Source: Rhodoglobus sp.
GTDB taxonomy: Bacteria > Actinomycetota > Actinomycetes > Actinomycetales > Microbacteriaceae
Reading direction: 5' to 3'
DNA length: 50,807 nucleotides
NCBI GenBank assembly: GCA_025463515.1
Contig: JAODAQ010000012.1
Location: 1-50,807 of the forward strand
Shown: piece after piece, positions 20,635 to 37,963 of the stretch
Layout: each line of letters starts with the position of its first letter
Position numbering within the stretch: the first letter of the stretch is position 1
Position numbers and translations under genes: made by a program
Notes under the pieces: generated by a model
The model's input: the letters and a program-made list of their open reading frames with translations, nothing else
Told to the model about the DNA's origin: nothing
Database searches by the model: none

Positions 20635-22131
20635 ATGACTCACACAGTCGACCGCGAATATCCGTGGCAACTGGCAGGTTCCCCCGGCCTGCAGCTCCAC
20701 CGCGCGCGCTCCCGCCCGACGGAGTGGGCCACAACCTTCCTGCGACTCGTCACGGTCACCGACATTGTCGTGATCATCGTCGCGACCGCGAGCACCCACC
20801 TGCTGTGGTTCGGCTTCCAGCACGTCCTCGTGGCCGCGCCCGTCGAACTCGGCATCGACTACCTGTTCTTCTCGGGCGGCCTGGTCATCGTGTGGATGAT
20901 CGCGCTCAGCGCCTCCGGATCCAGAGACACGCGCATCCTCGGCACCGACTCGACCGAGTACCGCCGCGTCATCAACTCGACCGCGCTCCTGTTCGGCGCG
21001 ATCGGAGTGTTCGCGGCCATGACCCAGACCGACCTGGCCCGCGGCTACCTCGTCACGGCCTTCCCGCTCGGGCTGCTCCTGCTGCTCGGCTCGCGCTGGT
21101 CGTGGCGGCGCTGGCTGCACGTGCGCCGTCGTCGGGGCGAGTTCTCGTTCCGGGTCGTCATCATCGGCAACATCGAGCGGGTGCGCGAGCTCGCGGCGTC
21201 CCTCGCGATCCGGCCGGATGCTGGCTACCGCGTGGTCGGCGCGCTGCTGACCGACGGCGGCTCGGGGTCGATCGAGGGGGTGCCCGCGACCCACGTCACC
21301 CGAGAGAGCCTGTTCGCGCGGCTCGCCGAGTCCAGCCAGGACACCGTGATCGTGGTGGGGTCGGACGAGCTCGACGCCGACGCGATCAACGAGCTCAGCT
21401 GGCGGCTCGACGCCGGCCAGCAGCTGGTCGTCGCGCCGCAGCTCGTGGGGGTCGCGGGAAGCCGCATCCATACCCGCCCGGTCGCCGGCCTGCCGCTCAT
21501 CCACGTGGAGACCCCGTCGTACGACGGACCGAAGCGCTTCGCGAAGCGCGCGTTCGACATCGTGGGGTCGGCCCTGCTGCTGCTCGCGCTCGCGCCGCTG
21601 TTCCTCGTGACCGCGCTGCTGATCAAGGCCACCGCTCCCGGCCCGGTGTTCTACCGCCAGGAGCGCATCGGCCTGAGCGGGGAGCCGTTCCACATCCTCA
21701 AGTTCCGCAGCATGGTCATCAACGCCGATGCCCATCTCGCCGCCCTCCTGCAGGCCCAGGGCAACGGCGGGACGCCGCTGTTCAAGGTCAAGGAGGACCC
21801 GCGCATCACCCGCGTGGGCCGCGTGATCCGCCGGTACTCGATCGACGAGCTGCCCCAGCTCTTCAACGTGCTGCTCGGCGACATGAGCCTCGTCGGCCCC
21901 CGCCCCCAGGTCGACGGCGAGGTGCGGCTGTACGACTCCAAGGCGAGCCGCCGCCTCGCGGTGAAGCCCGGCATGAGCGGGCTCTGGCAGGTGAGCGGGA
22001 GGTCGAACCTCTCGTGGGAGGACAGCATCCGGCTCGACCTGTACTACGTCGAGAACTGGTCGGTCACGAGCGATCTCATCATCCTCATGCGCACCGCCAA
22101 GGCGGTATTCGCCCACGACGGGGCCTATTGA
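20635..22131 (+). CDS. priming polyprenyl glycosylphosphotransferase
   Basis: Transfers the first sugar-1-phosphate to undecaprenyl phosphate to begin repeat-unit assembly at the inner membrane. 498 residues: N-terminal membrane helices (within about 35-145), a nucleotide-binding-like middle part (VVIIGNIERVRELA), and the C-terminal bacterial sugar transferase domain (about 300-498). That domain has KRAFDIVGSALLLLALAP, VFYRQERIG, FHILKFRSM, DELPQLFNVLLGDMSLVGPRP and KPGMSGLWQVSGRS. This is the WbaP/WcaJ/CpsE plan. First gene of EPS unit 1, behind a structured leader; ATG supported by GAGGA and by the ACCCGACATG context shared with unit 2. Confidence 0.92.
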   Translation: MTHTVDREYPWQLAGSPGLQLHRARSRPTEWATTFLRLVTVTDIVVIIVATASTHLLWFGFQHVLVAAPVELGIDYLFFSGGLVIVWMIALSASGSRDTRILGTDSTEYRRVINSTALLFGAIGVFAAMTQTDLARGYLVTAFPLGLLLLLGSRWSWRRWLHVRRRRGEFSFRVVIIGNIERVRELAASLAIRPDAGYRVVGALLTDGGSGSIEGVPATHVTRESLFARLAESSQDTVIVVGSDELDADAINELSWRLDAGQQLVVAPQLVGVAGSRIHTRPVAGLPLIHVETPSYDGPKRFAKRAFDIVGSALLLLALAPLFLVTALLIKATAPGPVFYRQERIGLSGEPFHILKFRSMVINADAHLAALLQAQGNGGTPLFKVKEDPRITRVGRVIRRYSIDELPQLFNVLLGDMSLVGPRPQVDGEVRLYDSKASRRLAVKPGMSGLWQVSGRSNLSWEDSIRLDLYYVENWSVTSDLIILMRTAKAVFAHDGAY

Positions 22132-24286: not shown

Positions 24287-25524
24287 GGATCGCCCAGTTC
24301 GTCGGCTCCCTGCTCGAGCCGCTCGGCGGTGCCGAGCAGTACTGCCTCGAGCTCGCGCGCTGGCAGCGCGACCAGGGGCACGACGTCACGATCGTCACCG
24401 GGTGGGTCTCCCCCGGAATTGAGAAGTCCCTTGCGGCCGAGGGCCTGACGGTGCGCCTCGTGCGCAGCCGGCGGCCGTACCCGCCCGACCGCAAGGGATC
24501 CACACCCGCCGCCGTGCTCTTCCACGGCCTCGACCTGCTCGGAGCCGTCCGGCTCGCCGCCCCCGTGCGCCGCCTGCTCGCCGAGCCGTGGGACGTCGTG
24601 CACGTCCACCGCTTCGCGGGGTTCGGCGCCGCCGTGCTGCGGTCCGGCAGCCCCACGGTCATGACCGTGCACGACTACGGCCTCGTCGACACCACCACGA
24701 CGCTGCTGCGCCACGGCCGCGAGGTCGAGACGCCGCCGCTCGTGCAGCGGCTGCGTACTCGCATCACGAATCGTGCGGTGCGGTCCGCCCGCCTGATCTT
24801 CCCCACCGCTCGCCTTCGGGACAAGCACGTGCAGTGGGGGCTCGTGCTGCCGCCGGTCACGGACGTCATCCCGCACGGCTGGCGCGGCGCGTCAGCGGCG
24901 GTCGAGCATGTCGAGGCCCCGCCCGTGTTCCTGTTCCTCGGCAAGCTGATCGCGACGAAGGGCGTCGAGCTGCTCCTCGAAGCCTGGGGAGCGGGCCCCG
25001 ACGGGCTCGACCAGCGGGGTGGGGCCGAGCTCTGGGTCGCCGGCGCCGGGCCGCTCGAGCAGCTGGTGCAGTCCGCGCCGAACGTGCGCGCGCTCGGGTG
25101 GCTCGACGACGCCGGACGCCGCGCGGCGCTCGCCGCGGCATCCGTGCTCGTGCTGCCCTCGACCTGGCCGGAGAACTTCCCGCTCGCCGCCGCCGAGGGG
25201 GTGCTCGCGGGGCTGCCCCTGATCTCGACCACGATCGCCGCCCCGCCCGTGCTCCACGAGAACGTCAACGGACTGCTGGCGGCGCCGGATGCCCCGGCCC
25301 TCCGCCGCGCGATGGAGCAGCTGCTCGACCCCGCCGAGCGCGCCCGACTGGCCGCGGGCTCGCGCGAGATCGCCCTCGAGCTCGACTTCGACACCCACGG
25401 TCGGCGGATCGAGGAGCTGTACGCGGAGGTCTCGGGGATTTCGACAAGCTCAATCGGCGGAGGGCGCTCAATCGGCGGGGGTCGCTCAATCGGCGGAGTT
25501 CAGTCAATCGGCGGGGCCGCATGA
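24283..25524 (+). CDS. GT4-type glycosyltransferase with repeat tail
   Basis: 413 residues. The N-terminal lobe has VGSLLEPLGGAEQYCLELAR (acceptor side) and DVVHVHRFAGFGA. The C-terminal lobe has FLFLGKLIATKGVELLLEAW, LWVAGAGPLEQL and the nucleotide-sugar site VLPSTWPENFPLAAAEG. It is a retaining GT-B enzyme, probably adding a later sugar of the EPS unit. ATG overlaps the previous stop (ATGA); longer frames were rejected. The last about 25 residues are a repeat, SIGGGR-SIGGGR-SIGGVQ-SIGG, encoded by four 18-bp units at 25449-25514, unlikely to belong to the folded enzyme. Confidence 0.9.
   Translation: MRIAQFVGSLLEPLGGAEQYCLELARWQRDQGHDVTIVTGWVSPGIEKSLAAEGLTVRLVRSRRPYPPDRKGSTPAAVLFHGLDLLGAVRLAAPVRRLLAEPWDVVHVHRFAGFGAAVLRSGSPTVMTVHDYGLVDTTTTLLRHGREVETPPLVQRLRTRITNRAVRSARLIFPTARLRDKHVQWGLVLPPVTDVIPHGWRGASAAVEHVEAPPVFLFLGKLIATKGVELLLEAWGAGPDGLDQRGGAELWVAGAGPLEQLVQSAPNVRALGWLDDAGRRAALAAASVLVLPSTWPENFPLAAAEGVLAGLPLISTTIAAPPVLHENVNGLLAAPDAPALRRAMEQLLDPAERARLAAGSREIALELDFDTHGRRIEELYAEVSGISTSSIGGGRSIGGGRSIGGVQSIGGAA
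25449..25514 (+). repeat. 18-bp tandem repeat (4 copies) at gene end
   Basis: (C/G)TCAATCGGCGG at 25449, 25467, 25485 and 25503; period 18 bp, that is six codons. Preceded by TTTCGACAAGCT, resembling a dispersed Microbacteriaceae repeat word. Confidence 0.85.
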
Positions 25525-25964
25525 GCATTCAGGACCGGCTGGTCCGGGCATCCCGCAACCGGGTCTTCGGGCGCCTCGCGTACCTCGCGCTCAAGTCGCT
25601 GGGCGTGGAGTTCCCGCGCTCCGTGCAGTGGGCGGCGCCGCTCGAGCTCGCGCACGGCGCGGTCGGGCTCGTGGTCCACTCCCGCACGGTGATCGGCTCG
25701 GGGGTCACGCTCATGCCGGGCGTCGTGCTCGGGCGCTCGGACTCGTGGATTCCCGAGACGGCGAGTACGGCATCCGGCCGCATCGTCGTGGGGGACCGCG
25801 TGACCGTCGGTGCGGGCGCGAAGGTGCTGTTCAAGTCCGGGCAGGAGCTCGTCATCGCGGCGGGCACCATCGTCGGCGCGAACGCCGTGCTGCTCGAGTC
25901 GACGGGGGCCGACGAGATCTGGGCGGGCAACCCCGCCCGCCGGGTCGGCTCGAGGTCCGCGTGA
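25521..25964 (+). CDS. hexapeptide-repeat acyltransferase
   Basis: 147 residues. The core (about 35-145) is a left-handed beta-helix of hexapeptide units: TVIGSGVTLMPGVVLG, IVVGDRVTVGAGAKVLF, IAAGTIVGANAVLLES, ending DEIWAGNPARRVGS. That last sequence is the classic WAGNPA closing motif of serine O-acetyltransferase and WcaF-like enzymes. In this setting it most likely acetylates a sugar of the EPS precursor. ATGA overlap with the previous gene and GTGA overlap with the next show tight coupling. Confidence 0.85.
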   Translation: MSIQDRLVRASRNRVFGRLAYLALKSLGVEFPRSVQWAAPLELAHGAVGLVVHSRTVIGSGVTLMPGVVLGRSDSWIPETASTASGRIVVGDRVTVGAGAKVLFKSGQELVIAAGTIVGANAVLLESTGADEIWAGNPARRVGSRSA

Positions 25965-27358
25965 GCGTCACCGTCCTCGGCATCGTGACCCTGGTCGCGA
26001 TCGTCGGGATCTGGTTCGTGCGCCGCGAGTGGACCCAGTACGTGGTCGGTGCGACAGTCGCCTTCCCGCAGACCGCCGGCGTCATCGTCGCGGGCAACGG
26101 CTTCCCGCTGTTCTACCTCGCGGTCGTGCTTCTCGTGGTGCTCGCGTTCCCGCACGCGCTCCTGGGCCTGTCGCGGCTCGGCCGGGCCCCGCGCGGCAGG
26201 CGCGAGCGCATGCTCGCCGACCTGATCGGCGCGGCGCTCGTGGTGTGGGCCGCCGTGATCTCGATCGCCGGCCCGCGCATCTTCACGGGCATGCGGGTGT
26301 TCGCGCCCGAGCTCGGCGTCGACTCACAGGTGGTCAACATGGCCACTCTCGCGCCCTCGCTCGGCAACATCGCGCAGCTCGGCTACGTCGCGATGGGCGT
26401 GGTCTTCCTGCTGGTCGCGGGCAGGCTCTTCCCCGTGGATGCCCGGCTGCTGGGTTCAGCGCTGTGGGTGGCCATCGTGCTCGCCGCCGTCCGGATCGTG
26501 GCCGAGCCCGTGTGGCCGCACGCGCTCCTGCAGAACATGCCGTCGTTCAACTACGCGACGCCCGAGCGGCTCTCGGGGACCTTCTACGAGCCCTCGGTGC
26601 TGGGCCTCTACCTCACCGCCGCGGCGGGGTACTTCGGCGCGCGGCTGCTGTGGTCCGGTGCGGCCGGTCGCGCTGCGGCGCTCGTGGCCCTCGCGCTCGT
26701 GGCCGTGGACTTCGTGCGAAACGGCTCCGGCACGGCACTGCTCGGGCTCGCGATCCTGCTCGGGCTCGCCGGGGTGGTCGCGCTGGTGCGGCAGCTGCGG
26801 TCCGGGCGCTTCGGGGTGCGGCCCCTCGCCGTCGTCGGCGCGATCGTCGTGGTGGGCGCGGCGCTCACGCAGATCCCGGTCATCCTGCAGTTCACCGTCG
26901 GCTCGGCGGCGAGCAAGGCGGACTCCGACAGCTTCATCGCGCGAACCGCCTCCAACCTGCGGTCGTGGCAGATCTTCCTCGAGAGCGGCGGCCTCGGGAT
27001 CGGCCTCGGCAGCAACCGGCCCTCGAGCCTGTTCATGCTCGTCATCAGCTGCCTCGGCGTGATCGGGCTCGTGCTCGTGGCGGCGCTTGTCATCCTCGCG
27101 CTGCGAAGGGCGCTCGTGCACCGGCCGATCGAGCCCGCGGGCTGGGGGCTCGCGGGCGTGCTCGTCGCGGCAATCGTCGCGGTGCCCGACCTCTCGACCC
27201 CCGCGATCTGGGTCGGCCTCGCGGCCTGCCTGTACGCGGTCGTTCAGCCCGCGCCCTCCGCACCGGCCGTGCTCGCGCCCTCCGCGCCGGTGCGAAATGC
27301 AGGAGAGCCGGCGCTTGCCGCCCCGGAATCCGCCAATCTGGCCCCGATTCGCCCCTGA
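25961..27358 (+). CDS. Wzy-like polysaccharide polymerase / O-antigen ligase family
   Basis: 465 residues, about 10-12 hydrophobic segments, with a long polar loop holding PERLSGTFYEPSVLGLYLTAAAGYFGA and RTASNLRSWQIFLESGGLGIGLGSNRPSS. The latter matches the Wzy_C/O-antigen-ligase loop with its conserved Arg and G-x-G-x-G-S-N-R. It probably polymerises repeat units at the outer face of the membrane. GTG start overlaps the previous stop (GTGA). The C-terminal tail (about 440-465, SAPAVLAPSAPVRNAG...) and the stop codon lie in a palindromic repeat element, so the native end was probably altered by its insertion. Confidence 0.85.
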   Translation: MSVTVLGIVTLVAIVGIWFVRREWTQYVVGATVAFPQTAGVIVAGNGFPLFYLAVVLLVVLAFPHALLGLSRLGRAPRGRRERMLADLIGAALVVWAAVISIAGPRIFTGMRVFAPELGVDSQVVNMATLAPSLGNIAQLGYVAMGVVFLLVAGRLFPVDARLLGSALWVAIVLAAVRIVAEPVWPHALLQNMPSFNYATPERLSGTFYEPSVLGLYLTAAAGYFGARLLWSGAAGRAAALVALALVAVDFVRNGSGTALLGLAILLGLAGVVALVRQLRSGRFGVRPLAVVGAIVVVGAALTQIPVILQFTVGSAASKADSDSFIARTASNLRSWQIFLESGGLGIGLGSNRPSSLFMLVISCLGVIGLVLVAALVILALRRALVHRPIEPAGWGLAGVLVAAIVAVPDLSTPAIWVGLAACLYAVVQPAPSAPAVLAPSAPVRNAGEPALAAPESANLAPIRP

Positions 27359-27700: not shown

Positions 27701-28585
27701 TCAGAGCGAGCGCCAGCCGAGCTCTTGGCGGGCGCGGCGGCGGAGGTAGAGCCGCTGCACGGGCGGGAGGCCAGCGATCGAGTCGAGGAAGCGCTCGATG
27801 AAGGGCTTCAGGGCGGCGCGGCCGGTGGGGGAGAGGGGGCCGTCGCGGGTGAAGGCGAGCTCGCGGAACCACGGGGTCTCGCGGGTGCCCCAGACCGCGT
27901 CGGTGAGCCCCTGGTACGAGCGCTCCAGCACGGGATCGTAGGCGAGGCTCTCGCGCCAGCCGAGGGCGGCAGTCACCTGAGTGGCGCTCTTGCGGATGAG
28001 CACTGTCGGGCGGGCGAGGCGCACCATCGTCGCGCCGTTCGCGGCGGCGCGCAGCCAGAGGTCGAAGTCCTCGGCGATGGCGCCGGCTCGATAGCCGCCC
28101 GCGGCACGCAGCGCGCTCGCGCGGCCGAGAGAGGTGGAGTGCGGGTACGGACAGTCGATGAGCAGTGCGAGCCGGGCCGCCTCGCGGCCGAAGCCGATCG
28201 GCGGGACGGGCCGGCGCGGCCCTGCGCCGATGACCTGGAAGGTGGAGAACACGAGGTCGGTGCCGCGCTCGACCGCGGCCAGCTCGGCGCGGAACCTGCC
28301 GCGGAGGCACACGTCGTCCGAGTCCATGCGCGCGATGTACTCGCCGCTCGCGGTCTCGAGCAGGCGCTCGGCCGCCAGCGCGACCCCGAGCTGGGTCGGC
28401 GAGCTCTCCACCCGCACGCGCGAGTCGCCGGTCGAGGAGGCGAGCTCGAGGGTCCGGTCGGAGCTCGCGTCGTCGAGGACGATGAGCTCGGCGTCGCTGG
28501 GCATAGCGCGCAGGGTGGTCCGCAAGGCCTCCTCGATGGTGCGCTCGGCGTTGCGCGCAGGCATCAAGACACTCAGGCGGGGCAC
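27701..28585 (-). CDS. GT2 family glycosyltransferase
   Basis: 294 residues. GT-A fold start MPRLSVLMPARNAERTIEEA, then ELIVLDDASSDRTLE (nucleotide binding), YIARMDSDDVCLRGR (the DxD metal site) and AGAIAEDFDLWLRAA with the catalytic Asp in the ED motif. It is probably a further EPS glycosyltransferase, on the opposite strand to the rest of the locus. I chose GTG 28585 (family-like MPRLSV start, CAGAGT seven bases upstream); GTG 28594 is the alternative. Its upstream region is shared with EPS unit 2, including the TTAACCC pair. Confidence 0.88.
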   Translation of the reverse strand: MPRLSVLMPARNAERTIEEALRTTLRAMPSDAELIVLDDASSDRTLELASSTGDSRVRVESSPTQLGVALAAERLLETASGEYIARMDSDDVCLRGRFRAELAAVERGTDLVFSTFQVIGAGPRRPVPPIGFGREAARLALLIDCPYPHSTSLGRASALRAAGGYRAGAIAEDFDLWLRAAANGATMVRLARPTVLIRKSATQVTAALGWRESLAYDPVLERSYQGLTDAVWGTRETPWFRELAFTRDGPLSPTGRAALKPFIERFLDSIAGLPPVQRLYLRRRARQELGWRSL

Positions 28586-28620
28586 GGCACCCACTCTGGC
28601 ACAAGGCGCGGACCAACCAC

Positions 28621-28820: not shown

Positions 28821-29252
28821 ATGTTCAGCACCCGAGCTGGCACGACGATCGAGCGCCCTGGCGTGCTCGTCGGCTGCGACATCCACCCCGTCTTCAATGT
28901 CGTCGAGAGCATCGACGTCTTCGGCGAGCGCTACCTCGCGAGGGTGTTCACCCCCGCCGAGCGCGCGGCAAGCGGCGAGGCGCCCGAACGCCTCGCTGCG
29001 CGCTACGCCGCCAAGGAGTCTGTTCTCAAGCTCCTGAAGATCCCGGCGGATGTCGCAGTGCCGTGGACCGACATCGAGGTGGGCGCCGACCCGAACGGCG
29101 CCCCCACGGTGGCCCTCCACGGCCGCGCGGCGGAGATCGCCGCCGACCTGGGCGTCACGACCATCGAGCTGACCCTCAGCCACGATGGCGGCATGGCCAT
29201 GGCCGTCGTGGCCGCGATGGTCGAGGCGCGCGAGTCGGCGATCGCCGCGTGA
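28821..29252 (+). CDS. AcpS-like 4'-phosphopantetheinyl transferase
   Basis: 143 residues. It would attach the phosphopantetheine arm of CoA to the carrier protein encoded next. AcpS signatures: GVLVGCDIHPV with metal ligand Asp20, RVFTPAER, and RLAARYAAKESVLKLL with the second ligand Glu66, plus LSHDGGMAMAVV near the end. It is unlikely to be the housekeeping AcpS, as it opens an EPS operon and its stop overlaps the carrier gene start (GTGA). The start has AAGGA seven bases upstream. Confidence 0.85.
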   Translation: MFSTRAGTTIERPGVLVGCDIHPVFNVVESIDVFGERYLARVFTPAERAASGEAPERLAARYAAKESVLKLLKIPADVAVPWTDIEVGADPNGAPTVALHGRAAEIAADLGVTTIELTLSHDGGMAMAVVAAMVEARESAIAA

Positions 29253-29500
29253 GCGCCGTCGACACCGTGCGCCGCGTGCTCGACACCCACGGCAAGCTCA
29301 AGACCCCGGCAGGCGCGCTCACGGAGGACGACGACCTCTACGCGGCGGGCATGACCTCGCACGCGAGCGTCAACGTCATGCTCGCCGTCGAGGACGCGTT
29401 CGACATCGAGTTCCCCGACGAGCTGCTCACCAAGACCACGTTCTGCTCAATCCGCTCCATCAGCAGTGCGGTCGAAGGTCTTCTGGAGGCCGCAGCATGA
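29249..29500 (+). CDS. acyl/aminoacyl carrier protein
   Basis: 83 residues forming the four-helix carrier fold: VDTVRRVLDTHGKL, DDDLYAAGMTSHASVNVMLAVED, then FDIEFPDELLTKTTFCSIRSISSAVEGLL. The phosphopantetheine site is Ser37 in GMTSHAS, which differs from the usual DSL (Asp to Thr, Leu to His). This points to a specialised carrier and not fatty acid synthesis. GTG start overlaps the AcpS-like stop; the stop overlaps the next ATG. Expected partner of the ligase encoded at 30677. Confidence 0.88.
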   Translation: MSAVDTVRRVLDTHGKLKTPAGALTEDDDLYAAGMTSHASVNVMLAVEDAFDIEFPDELLTKTTFCSIRSISSAVEGLLEAAA

Positions 29501-30672
29501 GAATGCCCACCACGATCACCGCGACGAAGGATGCCCGCCCGCTCGCCGAGCGCGTGGCCCACGTCGCCGACATCGCGGCCCGCTACGCGGGAGAGGTGGA
29601 CGCCGCCGCGCGCTTCCCCGCCGAGGCCGTCGACGCGATGCGCACCACCGGACTTCTCGGCGCGAGCCTGCCGACCGCCCTCGGCGGTGAAGGGCTGACC
29701 CTCGCGCAGCTCGGCTCCATTGCCGCGAAGCTCGGCGCCGCGTGCTCGTCGACGGGCATGGTCTTCGCCATGCACCACAGCCAGGTACTGAGCCTCTCCC
29801 GCCACCTCGGCGGCTCGGCATCCCTCGCGATCCTCGCCGGCCGCATCGCGAGCGAGCAGCTCCTGCTCGCCTCCGCGACCACCGAGCTCGGCATCGGCGG
29901 CGACGTGCGATCGAGCTCGTGCTTCGTCGACCTCGAGGGCGACAAGGTGCGGCTCATCAAGAACGCGCCCGTGATCTCCTACGGCTCCGAGGCCGACCTC
30001 GTGCTCGTGACCGCCCGCCGCAACGCGGACAGCGCCCCGAGCGACCAGGTGCTCGTGGTGTGCGACGCCGCGAACCTCACCCTCGAGGCGACCGGCGGCT
30101 GGGACACGCTCGGCCTGCGGGGCACCGCGAGCATGGGCTACAAGCTCAACGCGCTGGTCGCCGCCGACCGCGTGATCCCGGAGGCCTACGAGGCGATCTC
30201 GGCCGAGACGATGCTGCCCGTGTGCCACGTGCTGTGGGCGTCCGTCTGGCTCGGGATGTCGCGCGCACTGGTCGAGACGAGCAGGCAGTACGTGCGCAGC
30301 GCGGCCCGCCGCAGCATCGGCAGCGTTCCGCCGGGAGCGACGAAGCTCGTGGGCCTGATCGCCGAGCTGGAGCGCTTCGAGGCGCTCGTCGAGGGGCTCA
30401 CCGCCCGCACCGAGTCGCTCTTCGACGACCGCGACGCGATGGGCGGCATCGGCTACCAGGTGAGCATCAACAACCTCAAGGTGACCGCCTCTGAGCTCGT
30501 GGCGCAGGTCGCGACCGCGGCTCTCGCCATCACCGGCATCTCCGGCTACCGCAACGACGGCCAGTACAGCGTCGCCCGCATCTTCCGGGATGCCCAGGGT
30601 GCGGCTCTCATGGTCCACAACGACCGCATCATCGCCAACACGGCCAGGCTCATCCTGGTGCAGAAGGGATAG
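29497..30672 (+). CDS. acyl-CoA dehydrogenase-like flavoprotein
   Basis: 391 residues with the three-part ACAD fold: helical N-terminus (VDAAARFPAEAVDAMRTTGL), middle beta domain (GRIASEQLLLASATTELGIGGD) and C-terminal helical bundle ending GYRNDGQYSVARIFRDAQGAAL. The segment where many ACADs have the catalytic Glu (YEGT) reads MVHNDR, so the base must lie elsewhere, as in isovaleryl-CoA- or prolyl-carrier-type members. Between a carrier protein and an amino acid:carrier ligase, it probably oxidises a carrier-bound aminoacyl thioester. ATG 29497 (ATGA overlap) or 29503 are possible starts. Confidence 0.87.
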   Translation: MRMPTTITATKDARPLAERVAHVADIAARYAGEVDAAARFPAEAVDAMRTTGLLGASLPTALGGEGLTLAQLGSIAAKLGAACSSTGMVFAMHHSQVLSLSRHLGGSASLAILAGRIASEQLLLASATTELGIGGDVRSSSCFVDLEGDKVRLIKNAPVISYGSEADLVLVTARRNADSAPSDQVLVVCDAANLTLEATGGWDTLGLRGTASMGYKLNALVAADRVIPEAYEAISAETMLPVCHVLWASVWLGMSRALVETSRQYVRSAARRSIGSVPPGATKLVGLIAELERFEALVEGLTARTESLFDDRDAMGGIGYQVSINNLKVTASELVAQVATAALAITGISGYRNDGQYSVARIFRDAQGAALMVHNDRIIANTARLILVQKG

Positions 30673-30676
30673 TGAC

Positions 30677-31612
30677 ATGACCGACGTACTCGTCAGCACG
30701 CCTCTCGACGAGGCCCGCCTCGCATTCCGCGACGAACTGCTCGAATCCGGGATGCTCGTGGCAACGTCCGTGCCCGGGATCTACGGCCGCTCCGGTGACT
30801 TCGAGCGCATCGTCACGGGCCTCGACACCCTGCTCGGCGAGTCCTTCGCCTCCCTCGGCGCCACCGTGCTGCGCTTCCCCCCGGTGTACCCGCGCGCCGA
30901 CTTCGAACGCACCGACTACATCGCCTCGTTCCCCGACCTGAGCGGCATCGTCTCGAGCTTCGAGGACGGCGACCGCGAGCACCGCGAGCTGCTCGCCGCC
31001 CGCGAGGACGGCCACGCCTGGGACGGCTGGCTCAAGCCCGCCGACGTGGTGCTGACCAACGCGATCTGCCACCCGCTGTACGCGACCCTCGAGGGCACAC
31101 TGCCCGAGGGCGGCAGCGTGCACGACCTCTCCGGCTACGGGTTTCGCCACGAGCCGTCGAACGACCCGATGCGCCTGCAGTCGTTCCGGATGCGCGAGTT
31201 CGTGTTCGCCGGGACCCCGGATGCCGCACAGCTCTACCGCGACACCTGGCTCGACACCTCGGTCGCCGTCCTCGCCTCCCTCGGCCTGGCCGTGGACGCG
31301 GTGCCCGCCAATGACCCGTTCTTCGGCCGCGCGGGCAAGATGCTCGTGAGCGCCCAGCTGCGCGAGAACCTGAAGGTCGAGATCATCGTCCCGCTCTACG
31401 GCGACCTGCACGAGGGCACGGCGATCGCGTCGGCGAACTGCCAGCGCGACCACCTCACCGCCGCCTTCGACATCCGGACCACCGACGGCGAGATCGCCCA
31501 CGGTGCCTGCATCGCGTTCGGCATGGAGCGCACCGCCCTCGCGCTCCTGCGCACGCACGGCATGCGCCTCGACGCCTGGCCCGTGGACGTGCGCGCCCTC
31601 CTCGGCCTGTGA
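30677..31612 (+). CDS. amino acid:[carrier protein] ligase (aaRS-like)
   Basis: 311 residues, a class II aminoacyl-tRNA synthetase catalytic core without tRNA-binding domain. Motif 2 is QSFRMREFVF and motif 3 is CIAFGMERTALALL. Predicted zinc ligands as in the atypical SerRS-like family are Cys131 (NAICHPLY), Glu174 (RMREF) and Cys255 (ASANCQRDH). Proteins of this type are known to adenylate a small amino acid (glycine or alanine in characterised rhizobial and Methylibium members) and load it on a carrier protein. The adjacent AcpS-like, carrier and ACAD genes fit that chemistry. The amino acid used here cannot be read from sequence. Confidence 0.88.
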   Translation: MTDVLVSTPLDEARLAFRDELLESGMLVATSVPGIYGRSGDFERIVTGLDTLLGESFASLGATVLRFPPVYPRADFERTDYIASFPDLSGIVSSFEDGDREHRELLAAREDGHAWDGWLKPADVVLTNAICHPLYATLEGTLPEGGSVHDLSGYGFRHEPSNDPMRLQSFRMREFVFAGTPDAAQLYRDTWLDTSVAVLASLGLAVDAVPANDPFFGRAGKMLVSAQLRENLKVEIIVPLYGDLHEGTAIASANCQRDHLTAAFDIRTTDGEIAHGACIAFGMERTALALLRTHGMRLDAWPVDVRALLGL

Positions 31613-33297
31613 CCGCCGTGATGCTCGACACCTGGTTCGGCGACCCCGAGTCGCCGACCCTGGGATTCCTCCACCTCCCGGCCGACGGCCGGGTGCGCGG
31701 CGGCGTCGTGCTGTGCCCGCCGCTCGGCTACGACCAGGTGCTCGGCTACCGCGCCCTGCGCTTCGTCGGGCAGGAGCTCGCGGCCCGCGGCTTCGCTGCC
31801 CTGCGCTTCGACTACGTGGGCGAGGGCGACGCGAGCGGCGAGTCCGGCGCGCGCAACGCCCCCGAGCTGTGGATGTCGAGCATCGCCCGCGCTGCCGCCT
31901 ACCTCCGCGAATCCGGCGTCGAGAACGTCGCCCTCCTGGGCCTCGGAGCGGGCTCGCTGCTCGCCAACGAGGCTGCGGGCACAGTGGATGCCACGGCTCT
32001 GGTCCTCTGGGACCCGGAGCTCTCCGGCCGCCGCTTCCTCCGCAAGCAGCGCTCCCTGTTCGAGCTGACCGTCGGCTCCCACGGCGGGCCGAGCGACCCG
32101 GACGCCCTCCTCTCCCTCAAGCTGCACGCGGAGGCCAACGCCTGGCTGAGCGCGCGCGAGATCACCCCCGCGAGCCTGCCCGTCGGCGTCGACACCCTCA
32201 TCGTCGGCCGCCGCGCGAACGACGAGAACCCCGGGACCGTGCGTCTCACGTCCGGGCTGCCGGCGCGCGCCGAGTACCGGTCCGTCATCGGGCAGGAGGA
32301 GCTGCTCGAGGCTCCGAGCGCGCTCGCCGTGCTTCCGGAGGAGACGATCGCGGGCATGGGGGACTGGCTCGTGGAGCGGTTCCCCGCGGCATCCGTGCGC
32401 ATCGACCCGGTTGTCGTCGACCGCGCCGTCGTGGCGACGGCGCCCGACGGCACGCCCATCGTCGAGCGGCTGCGCCGCGTCGGCCCCGATGAGCTGTTCG
32501 TGATCGAGACCGGCCGCGAGGGCGACCTCGACTCCGGTGTCGTCGTGCTACAGCCGGGCGCCGCCGAGCACCGAGTGGGCCCCGGCCGGTTCCAGGTGCT
32601 CGCTGCCCGCGAGCTCGCGCAGCGCGGGTACCGGACCATCCGCTTCGACCGCCGCGTCACGGGCGACACCACCGAGGTGCGCCCGGGCGAGCCGAGCCTG
32701 ATCTTCGCGGAGGAGTGGGTGGACGACACCGACCGCCTCATCGCCGAGATCGCGAGCGAGGACGTGGTCGCCCACGCCGGCCTGTGCGCCGGCGGCTGGG
32801 TCGCGGCGCGGATGGCCGAGCGCCGTTCCGCGCGGCTCGCCGTGCTGTTCAGCCCGAACTACTTCAAGACCGCGGCACTGCGCGCGGGCGAGTACTCCGA
32901 CCTCACCAAGTCGGAGAAAGAGGGCACGCGCCGGTTCGTCGGCGTCAAGCGCCTCCTGCGCGGCGCGCTGCCCGGATGGGCCTGGCCGATCTTGAGCCGC
33001 CTGCAGCTGTTCCACGACCCCGCGGTGCTGCTCGAGGCCTCGAGCCGGCACGCGGAGAGCACGGTAGCGCTGCTGCTCACCCCGGAGGACCAGGAGAACT
33101 TCGGCGCTCACCGCGGCTACGCGGCGGTGTCTCGCCTCCAGGGCAGGGGCGCGGACATCCGGGTCACCAACTACCCGTACGGCGACCACTCGCTGTTCGG
33201 CGAGGAGGTACGGTCGGCGATGCTGGCCGACCTGCTGGCGCTGGTCGAGGAGACCCTGCCCCGCTCGGCGACGCTGGCTGCGGGGTCACGGGCGTGA
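31609..33297 (+). CDS. fused double alpha/beta hydrolase, Cys nucleophile in half 2
   Basis: 562 residues, two alpha/beta-hydrolase modules in tandem. Module 1 (about 1-270): GVVLCPPLGYDQVLGYRALR, ALRFDYVGEGDASG, and a nucleophile elbow GLGAG with Gly113 where Ser should be, so probably inactive. Module 2 (about 290-555): RTIRFDRRVTGDT, elbow GLCAG with Cys393, plausible acid Asp494 (TPEDQENFG) and His527 (GDHSLFG). Cys-nucleophile hydrolases include aminoacyl transferases acting on carrier proteins (SyrC/CmaE type), fitting the aminoacyl-carrier operon. Thioesterase or dead scaffold remain possible. GTG start overlaps the ligase stop. Confidence 0.85.
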   Translation: MTAVMLDTWFGDPESPTLGFLHLPADGRVRGGVVLCPPLGYDQVLGYRALRFVGQELAARGFAALRFDYVGEGDASGESGARNAPELWMSSIARAAAYLRESGVENVALLGLGAGSLLANEAAGTVDATALVLWDPELSGRRFLRKQRSLFELTVGSHGGPSDPDALLSLKLHAEANAWLSAREITPASLPVGVDTLIVGRRANDENPGTVRLTSGLPARAEYRSVIGQEELLEAPSALAVLPEETIAGMGDWLVERFPAASVRIDPVVVDRAVVATAPDGTPIVERLRRVGPDELFVIETGREGDLDSGVVVLQPGAAEHRVGPGRFQVLAARELAQRGYRTIRFDRRVTGDTTEVRPGEPSLIFAEEWVDDTDRLIAEIASEDVVAHAGLCAGGWVAARMAERRSARLAVLFSPNYFKTAALRAGEYSDLTKSEKEGTRRFVGVKRLLRGALPGWAWPILSRLQLFHDPAVLLEASSRHAESTVALLLTPEDQENFGAHRGYAAVSRLQGRGADIRVTNYPYGDHSLFGEEVRSAMLADLLALVEETLPRSATLAAGSRA

Positions 33298-34556
33298 AGG
33301 TCGTGGGAGCAACGCGTCGACTCGGCCTGTTCGGGGCCTCCGTGCTGCTCAACGGCGTCATCAGCCTGATCACCATCCCGATCGTGATCGCCGTCGCGGG
33401 TGCGGACCCGTGGGCCTCGATGGCGACCGGCCAGTCGATCGGCAACTCGATCGGCGTGCTCGTCGCTTTCGGCTGGGCGCTGACCGGCCCCGCCTCGATC
33501 GCGATGGCCCTGCCCGAGAGGCGGCCAGGGCTGTTCCTCGACTCGCTGTTCTCGCGCGGCGCGATCCTGCTCCCGCTCATCCTGGTACAGGCCCTCGTGA
33601 CCATGGCGATCGTGCCGCACGCCAAGTTCGTGGCCTTCGTCGCGGGCCTCGGGATGACGCTCGCCGGCGTCTCCGCCAACTGGTACTTCACCGGCGAGAG
33701 CCGTCCGGGCCGCTTCCTCTTCCTCGACACCGTCCCCCGCGTGCTCGGCACCGTCGCGGGACTGCTGCTCGTCGTGCTCACCGACAAGCTGCTGTTCTTC
33801 GCCCTCGCGCAGCTCGCGGGCTCGCTGCTCGCGCTCGGGGTGTCGTCGTACGTGATCCTCCGGGGCCAGCACCTCGACTTCCGCGAGGCCGCCCGGTGGC
33901 GCAACATCGTCGCGCGGCTCGCGGAGCAGCGCCACGGCGTCGTCGCGACCGGCCTGTACGCGGGGCTCACCCCGGCGATCCTCGGCATCGTGGCGCTCAC
34001 GGCACCGGCATCCCTGCCGCTGTTCGTCCTCGCCGATCGGCTCTCCAAGTTCGTGGGGATGGCCACCGCCCCCCTCATCCAGGTCTTCCAGGGCTGGGTC
34101 CCCGCGGCGAGCGGCGCGGAGCTGCTGCGGCGCATCTCGCTCTCGGCCCGCATCACCGTCGCGCTCGGGCTGCTGGCCGGAGCGGTCTACGCGGCCCTGC
34201 TCCCGCTGTTCAGCGAGCTGCTCACCCACGACCAGGTCGCGGTCGACGTCTCGTCGGCGATCGCGTTCGGCTGCGTGGCATCCTCGTGGGTGATCTCCCC
34301 GTACCTGACCAACGTCGCCCTCATGGCCGTGGGCCGGGTGCGCGTGATCGCGCTCAGCGCGTCGGTCGGCGTGCCGCTCACCCTCGCGCTCCTCGCCTCC
34401 GCCGAGCTCTTCGGCCTCGCGGAGTTCGCGCCGTGGGCGATCGTCATCGGCAACACGGTCGGGATGATCTGGCTGACGGTCGCGCTGCGCCAGGCGATGA
34501 GCCGCCCGCTCGAGCCCGCACTGGCCTACGCGAAGGCTCTTGAACCTGCTCGTTAA
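33294..34556 (+). CDS. Wzx-like polysaccharide flippase (MOP superfamily)
   Basis: 420 residues with about 12 membrane helices and few charged loops, typical of MATE/Wzx exporters. It would flip the undecaprenyl-linked repeat unit (perhaps aminoacylated) across the membrane. It starts with a short basic N-terminus (MKVVGATRRLG) and TM1 ASVLLNGVISLITIPIVIAV. GTG start overlaps the hydrolase stop by GTGA, so translation is coupled to the aminoacyl module. The gene end runs into the TTAACCC box of EPS unit 3: the stop TAA is part of the first box. Confidence 0.87.
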   Translation: MKVVGATRRLGLFGASVLLNGVISLITIPIVIAVAGADPWASMATGQSIGNSIGVLVAFGWALTGPASIAMALPERRPGLFLDSLFSRGAILLPLILVQALVTMAIVPHAKFVAFVAGLGMTLAGVSANWYFTGESRPGRFLFLDTVPRVLGTVAGLLLVVLTDKLLFFALAQLAGSLLALGVSSYVILRGQHLDFREAARWRNIVARLAEQRHGVVATGLYAGLTPAILGIVALTAPASLPLFVLADRLSKFVGMATAPLIQVFQGWVPAASGAELLRRISLSARITVALGLLAGAVYAALLPLFSELLTHDQVAVDVSSAIAFGCVASSWVISPYLTNVALMAVGRVRVIALSASVGVPLTLALLASAELFGLAEFAPWAIVIGNTVGMIWLTVALRQAMSRPLEPALAYAKALEPAR

Positions 34557-34708: not shown

Positions 34709-37700
34709 ATGGACATCCACGAATACTTCGGCGTGCTGCGCCGCGGCTGGGCACTAGTCGTGCTCGGGCTGCTCCTCGGCATCGCCGGCGGTGTGGCCGC
34801 GAACGCGATCCAGCCGCGCACGTATGCCGCGACGTCCCGGGAGATCCTCACCAACAGCGAGGCCACGGGCGACCTCACCCAGTCGCTGCAGGCATCGAAC
34901 CTCGCGGAGGGGCGCATCGCCTCCTACGTCCTCGTGGCCACGAGCGGGCTCGTGCTCCAGCCCGTGATCGACGAGCTCAAGCTCGACATGACGGTCCAAG
35001 AGCTCGCGGGGCACTTGGCTGTCGTCGCGCCCCCGAGCACCCTGATCGTCGAGATCACCGCGACGGCCGCGACGCCCGAGCTGGCGAAGTCCATCGCGAA
35101 CACGGTCTCGGCCGTGTTCAGCGACGTGGTCGAGAACCAGATCGAGAACGCGACGAGCCCCACGGTGGGCGCGACGGACCCCGATACGGATGCCGCGCCC
35201 GAGGTCCCCGCGACGACCCCCGTGCGCATCGTGAACATCGAGCACGCCTCCCTCCCGACCGCGCCGACGTTCTCCAACGCGCCCCTGCTGCTCGCGGTCG
35301 GAGCGATCCTCGGCCTGGCCCTCGGCCTCGTGGCCGCCTCCCTGCGCGAGACCCTGGACCGCCGCGTCCGCGGCCGCAAGGACGTCGCCGCCGTGACCGA
35401 GCGGCCCGTGCTCGGCCAGATCCGCCCGGACCGCGGCGTGAAGGCGAGCCCGATCGTCATGCACACGAGCTCGCAGAGCGCGATCGCGGAGTCGTTCCGC
35501 GGGCTGCGCGCGAGCGTCGAGCACGTCCGCTCCCGCGACGAGATCAGCACCTTCGTCATCACCGCGATGGCTCCCCGGCAGGGGGCATCCCTCGTCGCCG
35601 CCAACCTGGCGCTGGCCATCGCCGACACCGCGACCACCGTCGTCGTGGTCGACGCCAACCTGCAGTCGCCCAACCAGGCCGAGATCTTCGACGTCGATGC
35701 GGGCCCGGGGCTCACCGACCTGCTGACCACCAAGATCAGCCTCGACGAGGTCATCGCGGCCGGCCCGAGCGAGAACATCTGGGTGGTGCCGATCGGCTCG
35801 CGCCGCGCCAAGTCCGCCGACCTGCTCGCGACGCCGCGCATGCGCGCACTCATCACCGAGCTGCAGTCGCGCTTCGACGTGGTCGTCATCGACACCCCGG
35901 CCATCAGCACGGCGACGGATGCCACGGTCCTCGGCTCCTTCGGCGCCGCCACGCTCCTCGTGGTCGCCGAGGGCACCGCCACCCGCCCCGGCCTCGCGGA
36001 GGCGCTGAACGCCCTCGCCGCCGGCGGCAGCATCCCGGCCGGGATCGTGCTGAACCAGATCCCGCGCAGCACGCGCTCGCTGCGACCGGAGGCTCCCGCG
36101 CCCGCGCGCACCTCCCGCCGCGTGACCGGTGCGGGCGTGAAGGCGCCGCGCGCGGCCGAGCCCGCCCCGCTGGTCGAGCCCGCCCCGCTGGTCGAGCCTG
36201 TCGAGACCCCATCGGTGGTCGAGCAGCCCCTGGTGGTCGAGCCCGTCGAGACCCCCGCCAAGCCCGCCAAACCCGTCCGTCCCGCCAAACCCAGCACCTC
36301 GGCTCCTGCCGTAGCCGCCGTCCCGGCCACCGTGCCGTTGGCACCGCCAGTCCCCGTGGAGGAGAAAGTGCTCGAGATCGCCCCGCCCGCCGTCGAGTCG
36401 ACGTCGAGCCGCGCAGCCGCCCGGGCCGCGCGGGTTGCTGCGAAGGCCGCGGCTCGCGCCGCGGCATCCCGGCCCCCCCAGCCCGTCTCGCGGTTCGCGC
36501 CCAAGCCCGCCGACGCCGTGGAGGCCGCCGAGGCTGCCGCCGCGGCCGAGCGCCGCAGCTGGCCCGCACCGATCATCGACTCGGTGCCGGTGATCGAGCC
36601 GGTCGACGAGAGCTCCAACCCCGTGATCGACGTGCCGCGCGGCGACACGGGCGAGCGCGTGACCCTGCTTGCCCCGCAGCCGGGCGATCCCACGCCCGAG
36701 GAGCTCGCCCAGATCGTGGCCAACCAGTTCAAGGATGATGTCGTGTACGAGATCCCCGCCGAGACCTTCGGAAGCTTCCACCTCGTCGACGCCGACGCGT
36801 TCGCCGCCATCGACAACGAGCCGACGATCCTCCCGCCGTTCCGCAACACCGAGCCGGAGATCGCGCCCGGCACGCTCGTCATCGACCCGGTCGACCCGCT
36901 CTCCACCTTCAGTGTTCCTGCGCCGCTCACCGAGGAGAACGCGGCCTTCGTGATCGACCTCCTCGCCGATGAGCCCGTGTACGACGTGCCGCGCTTCGAG
37001 GATTGGGCGGTCGCCGCTCCGGCTGCCTCCGCTCCCGCTGCCTCCGCTCCTTCGGTGGAGCACGAGGAGACCGAGCCCGAGTTCGACGCCTCCGTGTACG
37101 ACCTCTCGGATCAGGGCGCGGCCGAGAATGCCGCAGTGGACGCGGCGGAGTATGACCTGCCCGTGTTCGAGGCGCCCGTCATGGAGGTGCCCGTCGTGGA
37201 GGCTCCCGCGTACGAGACTCCCGTGTACGAGAGTCCCGTGTACGAGATGCCCCTCTACGAGGCACCGGTGTACGCGATGCCGATCGTGGAGGCCGAGCCG
37301 GTTGCTGTCGAGCCCGCTGCCGTCGTCGAGCCCGAAGCCGTCGAGCCCGAAGCTGTCGAGCCCGTCGCAGTCGTCGAGCCCGCTGCTATTGCCGAGCCCG
37401 CGGCTGTCGAGCCCACGGCCGAGGCGCCCGCTCCTGCGGAGGCCTCTCCTGCGGGGGCCGCTCCGACCGAGTACGCCCCCGTGGAGCCGATCTCCGAGTC
37501 GACCGACCCGCGCCAGTTCATCGCCCCCGCGTCCTGGCCGGTCCCGCGCCTGGTCGCGGACTGGCCCGCCGCCCCGGAGCAGCGCATCGCCGCGGAGGCT
37601 GCAGCGCTCGCCGCCGAGCCGCAGGCGCCCGCAGCGGAGCCCGAGCCGCAGGCGCCCGCAGCGGAGCCGACCGCGCCGGAGCCGGCCGTGCCGGAGCCCA

Positions 37701-37963
37701 TCGACGAGGACACCCAGATCGCCCCAATCCTCGCCCGGGTCACCGCACTGCCGACCCGCGAGCGACTGGCCCGCGAGAGCTACCTGCTCAAGTCGCGCGA
37801 GCTCGAGCGCGCGGCACAGGAGCGCCTCCGCTACGAGCAGGAGCGGCTGGAGGCGCGCATCCGCGAGCAGCTCGAGGCCGACCGCCGCCAGCTCGCCGGC
37901 AAGCTCGACGAGCTCCTGGAGGACACCGTGATGATGCCCCGCAAGGTCGGCGACGGCTCCTAG
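34709..37963 (+). CDS. Wzz/BY-kinase-like protein with dead P-loop and Tyr-repeat tail
   Basis: 1084 residues. The N-terminal Wzz part (MDIHEYFGVLRRGWALVVLG, second TM near 190-210) is joined to a BY-kinase-like ATPase domain (about 250-460). There the Walker A reads APRQGAS with Ala293 in place of Lys; Walker A' VVVVDANLQ (Asp315) and Walker B VVVIDTPA (Asp395) are kept. The C-terminal 600 residues are Pro/Ala/Glu/Val-rich. They include VEPVETP units (about 490-520) and ten pentapeptides xExPV at 815-864, with Tyr835, 840, 845, 850 and 855 in strict 5-residue step. The end is a charged coiled coil (about 1020-1075). Probably controls EPS chain length; kinase activity is doubtful. Confidence 0.88.
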   Translation: MDIHEYFGVLRRGWALVVLGLLLGIAGGVAANAIQPRTYAATSREILTNSEATGDLTQSLQASNLAEGRIASYVLVATSGLVLQPVIDELKLDMTVQELAGHLAVVAPPSTLIVEITATAATPELAKSIANTVSAVFSDVVENQIENATSPTVGATDPDTDAAPEVPATTPVRIVNIEHASLPTAPTFSNAPLLLAVGAILGLALGLVAASLRETLDRRVRGRKDVAAVTERPVLGQIRPDRGVKASPIVMHTSSQSAIAESFRGLRASVEHVRSRDEISTFVITAMAPRQGASLVAANLALAIADTATTVVVVDANLQSPNQAEIFDVDAGPGLTDLLTTKISLDEVIAAGPSENIWVVPIGSRRAKSADLLATPRMRALITELQSRFDVVVIDTPAISTATDATVLGSFGAATLLVVAEGTATRPGLAEALNALAAGGSIPAGIVLNQIPRSTRSLRPEAPAPARTSRRVTGAGVKAPRAAEPAPLVEPAPLVEPVETPSVVEQPLVVEPVETPAKPAKPVRPAKPSTSAPAVAAVPATVPLAPPVPVEEKVLEIAPPAVESTSSRAAARAARVAAKAAARAAASRPPQPVSRFAPKPADAVEAAEAAAAAERRSWPAPIIDSVPVIEPVDESSNPVIDVPRGDTGERVTLLAPQPGDPTPEELAQIVANQFKDDVVYEIPAETFGSFHLVDADAFAAIDNEPTILPPFRNTEPEIAPGTLVIDPVDPLSTFSVPAPLTEENAAFVIDLLADEPVYDVPRFEDWAVAAPAASAPAASAPSVEHEETEPEFDASVYDLSDQGAAENAAVDAAEYDLPVFEAPVMEVPVVEAPAYETPVYESPVYEMPLYEAPVYAMPIVEAEPVAVEPAAVVEPEAVEPEAVEPVAVVEPAAIAEPAAVEPTAEAPAPAEASPAGAAPTEYAPVEPISESTDPRQFIAPASWPVPRLVADWPAAPEQRIAAEAAALAAEPQAPAAEPEPQAPAAEPTAPEPAVPEPIDEDTQIAPILARVTALPTRERLARESYLLKSRELERAAQERLRYEQERLEARIREQLEADRRQLAGKLDELLEDTVMMPRKVGDGS

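Follow-up and report, generated by a model that had tools for sequence, protein, structure and literature searches.

A carrier-protein module in a Rhodoglobus exopolysaccharide operon: a candidate system for sugar aminoacylation

What is a set of genes for charging a small carrier protein with an amino acid doing within an operon for exopolysaccharide (EPS)? The question is raised by a five-gene module at positions 28821–33297 of a 50,807-nucleotide stretch of DNA from Rhodoglobus sp. (GenBank assembly GCA_025463515.1, contig JAODAQ010000012.1, positions 1 to 50,807 of the forward strand; hereafter the window), which is contig 29 of the 78 contigs of this 3.3 Mb genome (G000). The module encodes an AcpS-type 4'-phosphopantetheinyl transferase (PPT), an aminoacyl carrier protein (CP), a flavoprotein of the acyl-CoA dehydrogenase fold (ACAD), an amino acid:[carrier protein] ligase resembling class II aminoacyl-tRNA synthetases (LIG) and a double alpha/beta hydrolase (HYD), and is followed by the gene of a candidate flippase (WZX). 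The nearest named relatives of LIG are Microbacteriaceae records (Leifsonia, Salinibacterium, Rhodoglobus and Schumannella).

The module is real and co-inherited. As to its role, we tentatively favour the explanation that it aminoacylates a lipid-linked EPS repeat unit, a small amino acid being loaded on the carrier, modified by a flavoenzyme, transferred by the Cys hydrolase and flipped with its sugar by a Wzx protein; the main rival is a small-molecule product. Gene content, conservation and co-inheritance are observed directly, and we infer every step of the route built on them. The sequence-only reading of this DNA knew of no description of such a system. The idea of sugar aminoacylation is in fact already in print, since Iyer et al. 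2010 (PMC2922099), in a note in proof, predicted a ligase system that attaches an amino acid to a sugar of the cell surface. The same paper suggests that a redox partner modifies the aminoacyl group, possibly by monooxygenation (PMC2922099). In the open-licence PMC literature we found neither an experimental description of an EPS aminoacylation system nor a test of the 2010 proposal, and the same holds there for hydrolases of exosortase-A (XrtA) loci with an acyl carrier protein (ACP) and for Microbacteriaceae EPS with amino acids.

A module inherited with its polysaccharide neighbours

The five genes lie on the forward strand in the order PPT, CP, ACAD, LIG and HYD from position 28821 to 33297, and the gene of the polytopic WZX protein follows at 33294–34556, just as five coupled genes and a following polytopic protein had been described from the sequence. 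Four-base overlaps are present at four of the five junctions, including HYD/WZX (GTGA at 29249–29252, ATGA at 29497–29500, GTGA at 31609–31612 and GTGA at 33294–33297). The chain of four-base overlaps proposed earlier is broken only at the ACAD/LIG junction (30672/30677), where the genes are separated by a gap of 4 bases.

The same five genes keep their order in five Microbacteriaceae-type loci (L026–L030) with protein identities of 53–89%, and this recurrence excludes a chance arrangement. In all five loci the order extends to WZX and is accompanied by genes of an initiating polyprenyl glycosylphosphotransferase (PGT) and of glycosyltransferases (GT); a Wzz gene is located near the module in four of them, the contig of L030 ending first. 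The six-gene order is also present in L165. Gene starts in the relatives are from simple calling based on GC3 (GC content at third codon positions).

Among 27 genomes of the genus, LIG is present in 6. WZX finds matches in 15 of the 27, at 60–100% identity in the six LIG genomes and at no more than 31% in the others, while PGT finds matches in 22, at 70–100% identity in the same six and at no more than 52% in the rest. The locus has been gained or lost as one unit, which demonstrates linkage and not dependence. L026–L029 belong to both the contig scan and the genus test and, together with L165, make up five of the six LIG-positive genus genomes; the locus-order and genus counts are not independent.

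Predicted activities of the module proteins

Conservation was counted in sets that include the window sequence (86 LIG, 84 CP and 54 HYD proteins) and in 83 ACAD proteins, with short proteins excluded (HYD below 480 aa, ACAD below 340, LIG below 280 and CP below 70). PPT (28821–29252, + strand, 143 aa) is over the cut-offs of PF01648 (49.2 bits) and TIGR00556 (71.7 against 45.35) and below that of TIGR00516, the acpS family (51.1 against 59.8 bits). Elsewhere the window genome encodes two further proteins with PF01648 matches, one that passes the cut-off and one that falls below it. Presumably PPT turns the neighbouring CP into its holo form, and the first step of the route, judged from the family, would be the placing of phosphopantetheine on Ser37 of CP. 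CP itself (29249–29500, + strand, 83 aa) scores 102 bits against a cut-off of 72 for NF005480, and its solved relatives include 4h2w_C and 2jq4 (Atu2571). Ser37, which had been named earlier as the phosphopantetheine site, is Ser in 84 of 84 sequences.

LIG (30677–31612, + strand, 311 aa) is over the curated cut-off of NF005479 (384.5 against 357 bits), and its residues 27–311 align with the structures of Bll0957 (1e-65), whose entries 4h2s to 4h2y include an aminoacyl carrier protein chain. On sequence grounds LIG and CP belong to the known families of amino acid:[carrier protein] ligases and aminoacyl carrier proteins, so that the aaRS-like ligase and its carrier recognized earlier are confirmed at family level, both being over curated cut-offs, and activation of an amino acid on the carrier is supported at the same level. 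The zinc site needs one correction. The sequence-only reading had given it as Cys131, Glu174 and Cys255; the first two are invariant (86/86), but at position 255 just 12 of the 86 sequences have Cys (69 have Tyr), and Cys255 is rejected as a ligand, the third ligand being Cys278 (86/86). Cys131, Glu174 and Cys278 fall on positions 151, 196 and 299 of the Bll0957 chain, Cys278 on a conserved Cys, and these positions, less a 20-residue tag, we take to be the published Cys131, Glu176 and Cys279. In the second step, which is modelled on a solved and assayed family, LIG would adenylate its amino acid substrate, which is probably glycine or alanine, before passing it to CP as a thioester. Glycine, alanine and serine are the amino acids given for the ligase family in a review table (PMC9437257).

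The ACAD protein (29497–30672, + strand, 391 aa) has the N- and C-terminal ACAD domains of Pfam over cut-off and an AlphaFold model of the ACAD fold with a mean pLDDT of 87.4. This agrees with the ACAD-like flavoprotein of the sequence-only reading, but not with a canonical dehydrogenase. At column 373, the position of the catalytic Glu in MCAD and SCAD, the 83 sequences have Ile (63) or Val (20), and at column 243, the site used by isovaleryl-CoA dehydrogenase (IVD), they have Ser (62), Ala (13), Cys (4) or Thr (4); neither known Glu occurs in any of them (0/83). Both columns were set by hand from aligned relatives and from IVD and MCAD sequences. An ordinary acyl-CoA dehydrogenase is rejected on this basis. 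Residues Cys83, His93, Cys142, His244, Trp247 and Trp251 are invariant in this set. Foldseek places the group D flavin monooxygenases TdsC and DszC at ranks 1–10, with dehydrogenases scoring almost equally, and DnmZ (rank 14) and KijD3 (rank 20) appear amid dehydrogenases. The protein is a probable oxidase or monooxygenase acting on aminoacyl-CP. As regards the oxidation on the carrier that had been suggested, a redox step is plausible, but because both known catalytic bases are missing it is more likely to be oxygenation or another flavin oxidation than a dehydrogenation of the acyl-CoA type. The third and weaker step of the route is that this enzyme might oxidise or oxygenate the bound aminoacyl group.

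HYD (31609–33297, + strand, 562 aa) was assigned from TIGR03101 and TIGR03100 matches under cut-off and from structure; its AlphaFold model has a mean pLDDT of 87.2 and its Foldseek matches are alpha/beta hydrolases. The first half resembles TIGR03101 (hydrolase 2, 2.2e-24) and the second TIGR03100 (hydrolase 1, 4e-13). In the second domain Cys393 and His527 are invariant (54/54) and Asp494 is Asp in 51 of 54 sequences, while the nucleophile position of the first domain is occupied by Gly or Arg in 52 of 54 and by Ser in one. The double hydrolase with a Cys nucleophile foreseen earlier is confirmed, with the nucleophile in the second domain only. Judged from these residues, HYD is a fusion of a dead and a Cys-His-Asp domain, similar to hydrolases 2 and 1 of XrtA loci, which are encoded by separate genes.

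The XrtA-type regions provide a further comparison. Of the 94 genomes in the class to which G503 belongs, six encode TIGR03100 members that exceed the cut-off. In four of four XrtA-type regions, hydrolase 2 is flanked by an open reading frame (ORF) of 83–102 aa and has Arg at the nucleophile place. This small ORF matches the window CP in L153 (1.2e-5) and has no Pfam or NCBIfam match in L155. L152 encodes an AMP-forming ligase (TIGR03098) and a decarboxylase (TIGR03099), both over cut-off. The motif G-[LI]-C is present in all nine readable TIGR03100 matches, five of them over cut-off; the tenth, in L139, is the exception to readability. At L172 (G556 contig 3, 1873–9990) a two-module nonribosomal peptide synthetase (NRPS) with carrier domains is followed directly by two separate genes, one hydrolase 2-like and one for a Cys hydrolase resembling hydrolase 1. 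A carrier protein is common to the settings in which the hydrolase pair is found, which supports a role of HYD on carrier-bound acyl groups.

SyrC/CmaE-type aminoacyltransferases have the alpha/beta hydrolase fold and a Cys nucleophile and shuttle aminoacyl groups between carriers, and Ser is the usual nucleophile of the hydrolytic enzymes with this fold. The presence of Cys instead of Ser would suit a transferase, and HYD is the best candidate for an aminoacyl transferase in the window genome. In the fourth step of the route Cys393 would accept the acyl group, forming a second thioester, and would then deliver the group to a sugar hydroxyl or amine, and the catalytically dead first domain might aid binding.

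Another locus with HYD proteins is L171 (G582 contig 16, 172–13453), which has the order ACAD-LIG-DUF1839-GH2-HYD, DUF1839 and GH2 being named by place and size. After the first HYD come an Acyl_transf_3 gene, a 78-aa ORF, a 555-aa ORF with no Pfam match and then another fused HYD, which has G-L-C-S-G. It appears that two carrier/hydrolase systems are adjacent here.

Genomic settings and rival explanations

The polysaccharide genes of the window surround the module on both sides. Upstream on the + strand are PGT (20635–22131; PF02397, 229 bits), a double GT4 glycosyltransferase (22133–24286; two Glyco_trans_1_4 stretches in Pfam), a GT4 glycosyltransferase (24241–25524; Pfam) and a Wzy-like polytopic protein (25289–27358), which is named by place and topology only: it has 10 hydrophobic segments and no match in the Pfam scan, and its listed start is mechanical, the hydrophobic part beginning near 25960. 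A GT2 glycosyltransferase (27701–28594, − strand; PF00535, 5.5e-22) is divergent from the module. Downstream, WZX (33294–34556, + strand) is polytopic, with 9 hydrophobic segments in a crude scan. The Wzx-like flippase proposed earlier finds support in its relatives, one ortholog being just below the Polysacc_synt cut-off (27.0 against 28.2) and a more distant homolog above it (31.1), but WZX itself has no match in the Pfam scan; a profile comparison with two other flippases gave a probability of 2.8. Its orthologs are present in L026–L030 and L165. Next is a protein resembling Wzz and tyrosine autokinases (34709–37963, + strand; TIGR03018 3e-34 and TIGR01007 8.5e-31, both under cut-offs), with a low-complexity tail of about 600 residues that is rich in Pro, Glu, Ala and Val and partly repeated. 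A scan for promoters and terminators detected a single terminator-like site, on the opposite strand, a number equal to that in shuffled sequences, and no promoter. In the fifth and last step of the route WZX would flip the modified unit, which would be polymerised by the Wzy-like protein and Wzz.

The ligase scan yielded 306 relatives, and context was counted on the best 80 loci, many of them close kin, with flanks of up to 10 kb (16 actinobacterial loci and 64 others). CP and ACAD are each present in 78 of the 80. The 16 actinobacterial loci contain PPT (13), HYD (12), PGT (11) and DUF1839 (7), and 14 of them have a PGT, Wzx, Wzy or GT match within about 10 kb. In the 64 others we found DUF1839 (64), GH2 (61), HYD (41), GT (31) and Wzx (5), and neither PGT nor PPT. 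An occurrence mostly without polysaccharide genes, which the sequence-only reading had held to be damaging, is not what the actinobacterial loci present; outside them the GT count is 31 of 64, and ten further ligase stretches from actinobacterial genomes (L156–L165) give 3 of 10. Marker queries were partly drawn from loci counted afterwards (L031, L032, L033, L040 and L069), and the sugar genes of L031, L032, L040 and L069 are also detected by Pfam.

Related modules are accompanied by other polysaccharide genes in Mycolicibacterium, Gordonia, Williamsia and Tsukamurella. The Mycolicibacterium locus L031 reads Wzx-Wzy-GT4-GT4-GT4-HYD-PPT-CP-LIG, with no ACAD, and L163 (G486) has GT, Wzy, PPT, CP, LIG and HYD genes matching L031, plus a PGT. 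A Tsukamurella plasmid (L106, NZ_LR134455.1) has PGT, PPT, GT, CP, LIG, GTs, a flippase and HYD, again with no ACAD. Among Alphaproteobacteria, the loci of Kaistia, Bosea and Mesorhizobium read CP-ACAD-LIG-DUF1839-GH2, preceded by Wzx, HYD, GH5, GT4 and a GT26-like gene, while the Rhodococcus loci read PPT-CP-ACAD-LIG-DUF1839-GH2, one of which (L035) adjoins genes with Mfd-type and MazG domains.

Some loci have features of their own. Next to PGT on the Tsukamurella plasmid (7192–8610) a 472-aa hypothetical protein contains HHAVLDG, presumably the HHxxxDG motif of condensation and PapA-type acyltransferases; no similar gene was matched in the other loci of the locus comparison. One genome of the genus of the window has a second ligase locus, of the DUF1839 type (L156, G012 contig 8, 8903–13500), which reads CP-LIG-DUF1839-GH2 and has no ACAD or HYD matches. 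On a Rhizobium acidisoli plasmid (L108, 10243–13868) CP-ACAD-LIG-DUF1839 is immediately preceded by nif genes and by a gene annotated as an exopolysaccharide production repressor. On a Priestia megaterium plasmid (L110, NZ_CP085444.1, 884–14707) AcpS-ACP-ACAD-ligase adjoins a DMT transporter and an ATP-grasp protein, with an alanine permease, an alanine racemase and an annotated D-alanine--D-alanine ligase also present; this suggests alanine as a substrate in the Priestia branch and hints at a non-glycan product there.

A number of observations weigh against EPS decoration. The set is found among housekeeping genes in two other Microbacteriaceae genera (L157 and L158, whose ORFs were listed anew) and in a distant actinobacterium (L161, G386); Pfam was run on selected ORFs, 10, 11 and 8 of them respectively. 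In L158 the five genes lie between the gene of ribosomal L35 and a SpoU-methylase/pheST stretch, in L157 they are near PDH and acyltransferase genes, and in L161 CP-ACAD-LIG-HYD, with no PPT seen, lies between Lhr-helicase and DNA-glycosylase genes, amid further genes that are unrelated. The L158 genome (G058) has no PF02397 match; in the genomes of the other two loci, G057 and G386, PF02397 is matched on contigs other than that of the set. With the queries used, a PGT, GT, Wzx or Wzy match occurs in only three of the ten stretches L156–L165 (L162, L163 and L165); HYD too is missing from the matches of L159, L160 and L164, and the distant ligases L166–L170 likewise lack both kinds of match. 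The ligase tree places L157 and L158 as sister to seven EPS-embedded rows (support 94/79). ACAD is not seen in the EPS-linked loci L031, L036, L163 and L106, and by sequence the window flavoprotein is closest to dehydrogenases, which rank first in sequence searches. HYD is under the curated cut-offs of TIGR03100 (49.3 against 168.45 bits) and TIGR03101 (86.4 against 202.75), and one of the nine readable TIGR03100 matches is itself the HYD of a ligase locus (L144/L171). The co-inheritance within the genus, moreover, could be physical linkage only.

The idea that EPS linkage is obligatory is rejected on account of L157, L158 and L161; of the polysaccharide context noted earlier, what stands is a linkage in several lineages. 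The position of L157 and L158 makes the EPS placement of the window clade one event. EPS-embedded Mycobacteriales rows are found elsewhere in the tree, and the EPS label needs three changes on it, two of them forced by well-supported branches. The redox step is not general either, since ACAD is not seen in those four EPS-linked loci.

The main rival explanation is that the module turns an amino acid, oxidised on the carrier, into a small molecule, either diffusible or bound to the cell, which HYD releases or transfers; the place of the module in the EPS operon of the window clade would then reflect co-localisation. We consider this possible, though somewhat doubtful. The housekeeping surroundings of L157, L158 and L161 speak for it, as do the seven of ten stretches L156–L165 without a PGT, GT, Wzx or Wzy match, the lack of PF02397 in G058, the Priestia plasmid set, which has no sugar gene among the features listed, and the hydrolase 2/1 pair adjoining an NRPS in L172. 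However, genes for glycan assembly or glycosidases are repeatedly nearby in unrelated lineages, within the genus the module is inherited strictly together with WZX and PGT, and it shares a four-base overlap with wzx.

A second explanation retains decoration of the EPS and reassigns HYD as an editing thioesterase of type II-like character, the bond to the sugar being left to another enzyme, either a glycosyltransferase or a protein as yet unknown. The alpha/beta hydrolase fold of HYD is also that of thioesterases, and HYD occurs together with DUF1839, the transferase proposed in print, in 41 of the 64 non-actinobacterial loci. Against this, DUF1839 was not found in the window genome, no acyltransferase family is present among the 17 window ORFs scanned, and all 54 HYD sequences have a Cys nucleophile, whereas hydrolytic enzymes of the fold usually have Ser. 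We regard this explanation as improbable. The original proposal of Mocibob et al. 2010, as cited in PMC2922099, is in our view very improbable, as no NRPS condensation or adenylation domain is present among the 17 window ORFs scanned or annotated in six comparison records, the L106 protein with HHxxxDG aside.

Atu2574, proposed in 2010 as an amide ligase or transferase, is taken here as DUF1839, an inference from its place after the ligase. DUF1839 is described as papain-like, and it might process cell-wall glycans in an acyl-CoA-dependent way, according to the text on this family in PMC10318531. A search of 16 genomes was positive in 4 (G491, G012, G508 and G509) and gave no match in G000, G007, G014, G019, G023, G057, G058, G386, G486, G507, G510 and G511; 11 of these 12 negative genomes, all except G511, have HYD in the ligase locus. 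Because DUF1839 was not found in its genome, HYD is the remaining transfer candidate in the window variant.

Relation to known carrier-dependent systems

In this locus the ligase belongs to one defined operon of the Wzx/Wzy type with a single candidate transferase, which makes the 2010 proposal testable, and the link to the XrtA hydrolases would give a first testable role to two NCBIfam hypothetical equivalog families (TIGR03100 and TIGR03101). One may go further and speculate, though we think it rather unlikely, that the dead/Cys pair of alpha/beta hydrolases is a general carrier-to-glycan (amino)acyltransferase for lipid-linked EPS units, whatever loads the carrier, and hence an unrecognised route. 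The loader would be the aaRS-like ligase in the window and the AMP-forming ligase in XrtA loci, the pair being separate in the latter and fused in HYD. On that reading the window clade would add a third system, next to Dlt and Alm, in which a carrier protein serves to aminoacylate a polymer of the cell envelope.

The closest known counterpart is the predicted system of Iyer et al. (Bll0957, Atu2571–2574; PRK07080/PRK07081), with which the window has in common the ligase, the carrier, the flavin redox enzyme and the saccharide genes. It differs in that the window genome has no DUF1839 match, no GH2 is seen in the locus, and a dedicated PPTase, a fused Cys hydrolase and a Wzx/Wzy-type operon are present. 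The window set is likely a variant of that predicted sugar-aminoacylation system with a different likely transfer enzyme. The XrtA EPS loci (ACP, TIGR03098, TIGR03099 and TIGR03100/TIGR03101) share with it an ACP-like ORF beside a degenerate and a Cys hydrolase, and their families take their names from EPS or exosortase systems, whereas in the window the loading enzyme is aaRS-like and the hydrolases are fused and under curated cut-offs.

In D-alanylation of teichoic acids (DltABCD) and glycine addition to lipid A (AlmEFG) an amino acid likewise reaches an envelope polymer by way of a small carrier. Those systems use the AMP-forming DltA or AlmE and an MBOAT protein or AlmG, in contrast to the aaRS-like ligase and Cys hydrolase of the window; this comparison draws in part on the account of them in PMC12930378. 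The Pfam scan of the 17 window ORFs gave no AMP-binding, MBOAT or other acyltransferase match. In butirosin biosynthesis (BtrI carrier, BtrH acyltransferase) an acyl group passes from a carrier to an aminoglycoside by a papain-like enzyme; DUF1839 of the sister systems is papain-like as well (PMC10318531), but was not found in the window genome. The SyrC/CmaE type offers a further parallel to the proposed role of HYD: an alpha/beta hydrolase with a Cys nucleophile that moves aminoacyl groups between carriers.

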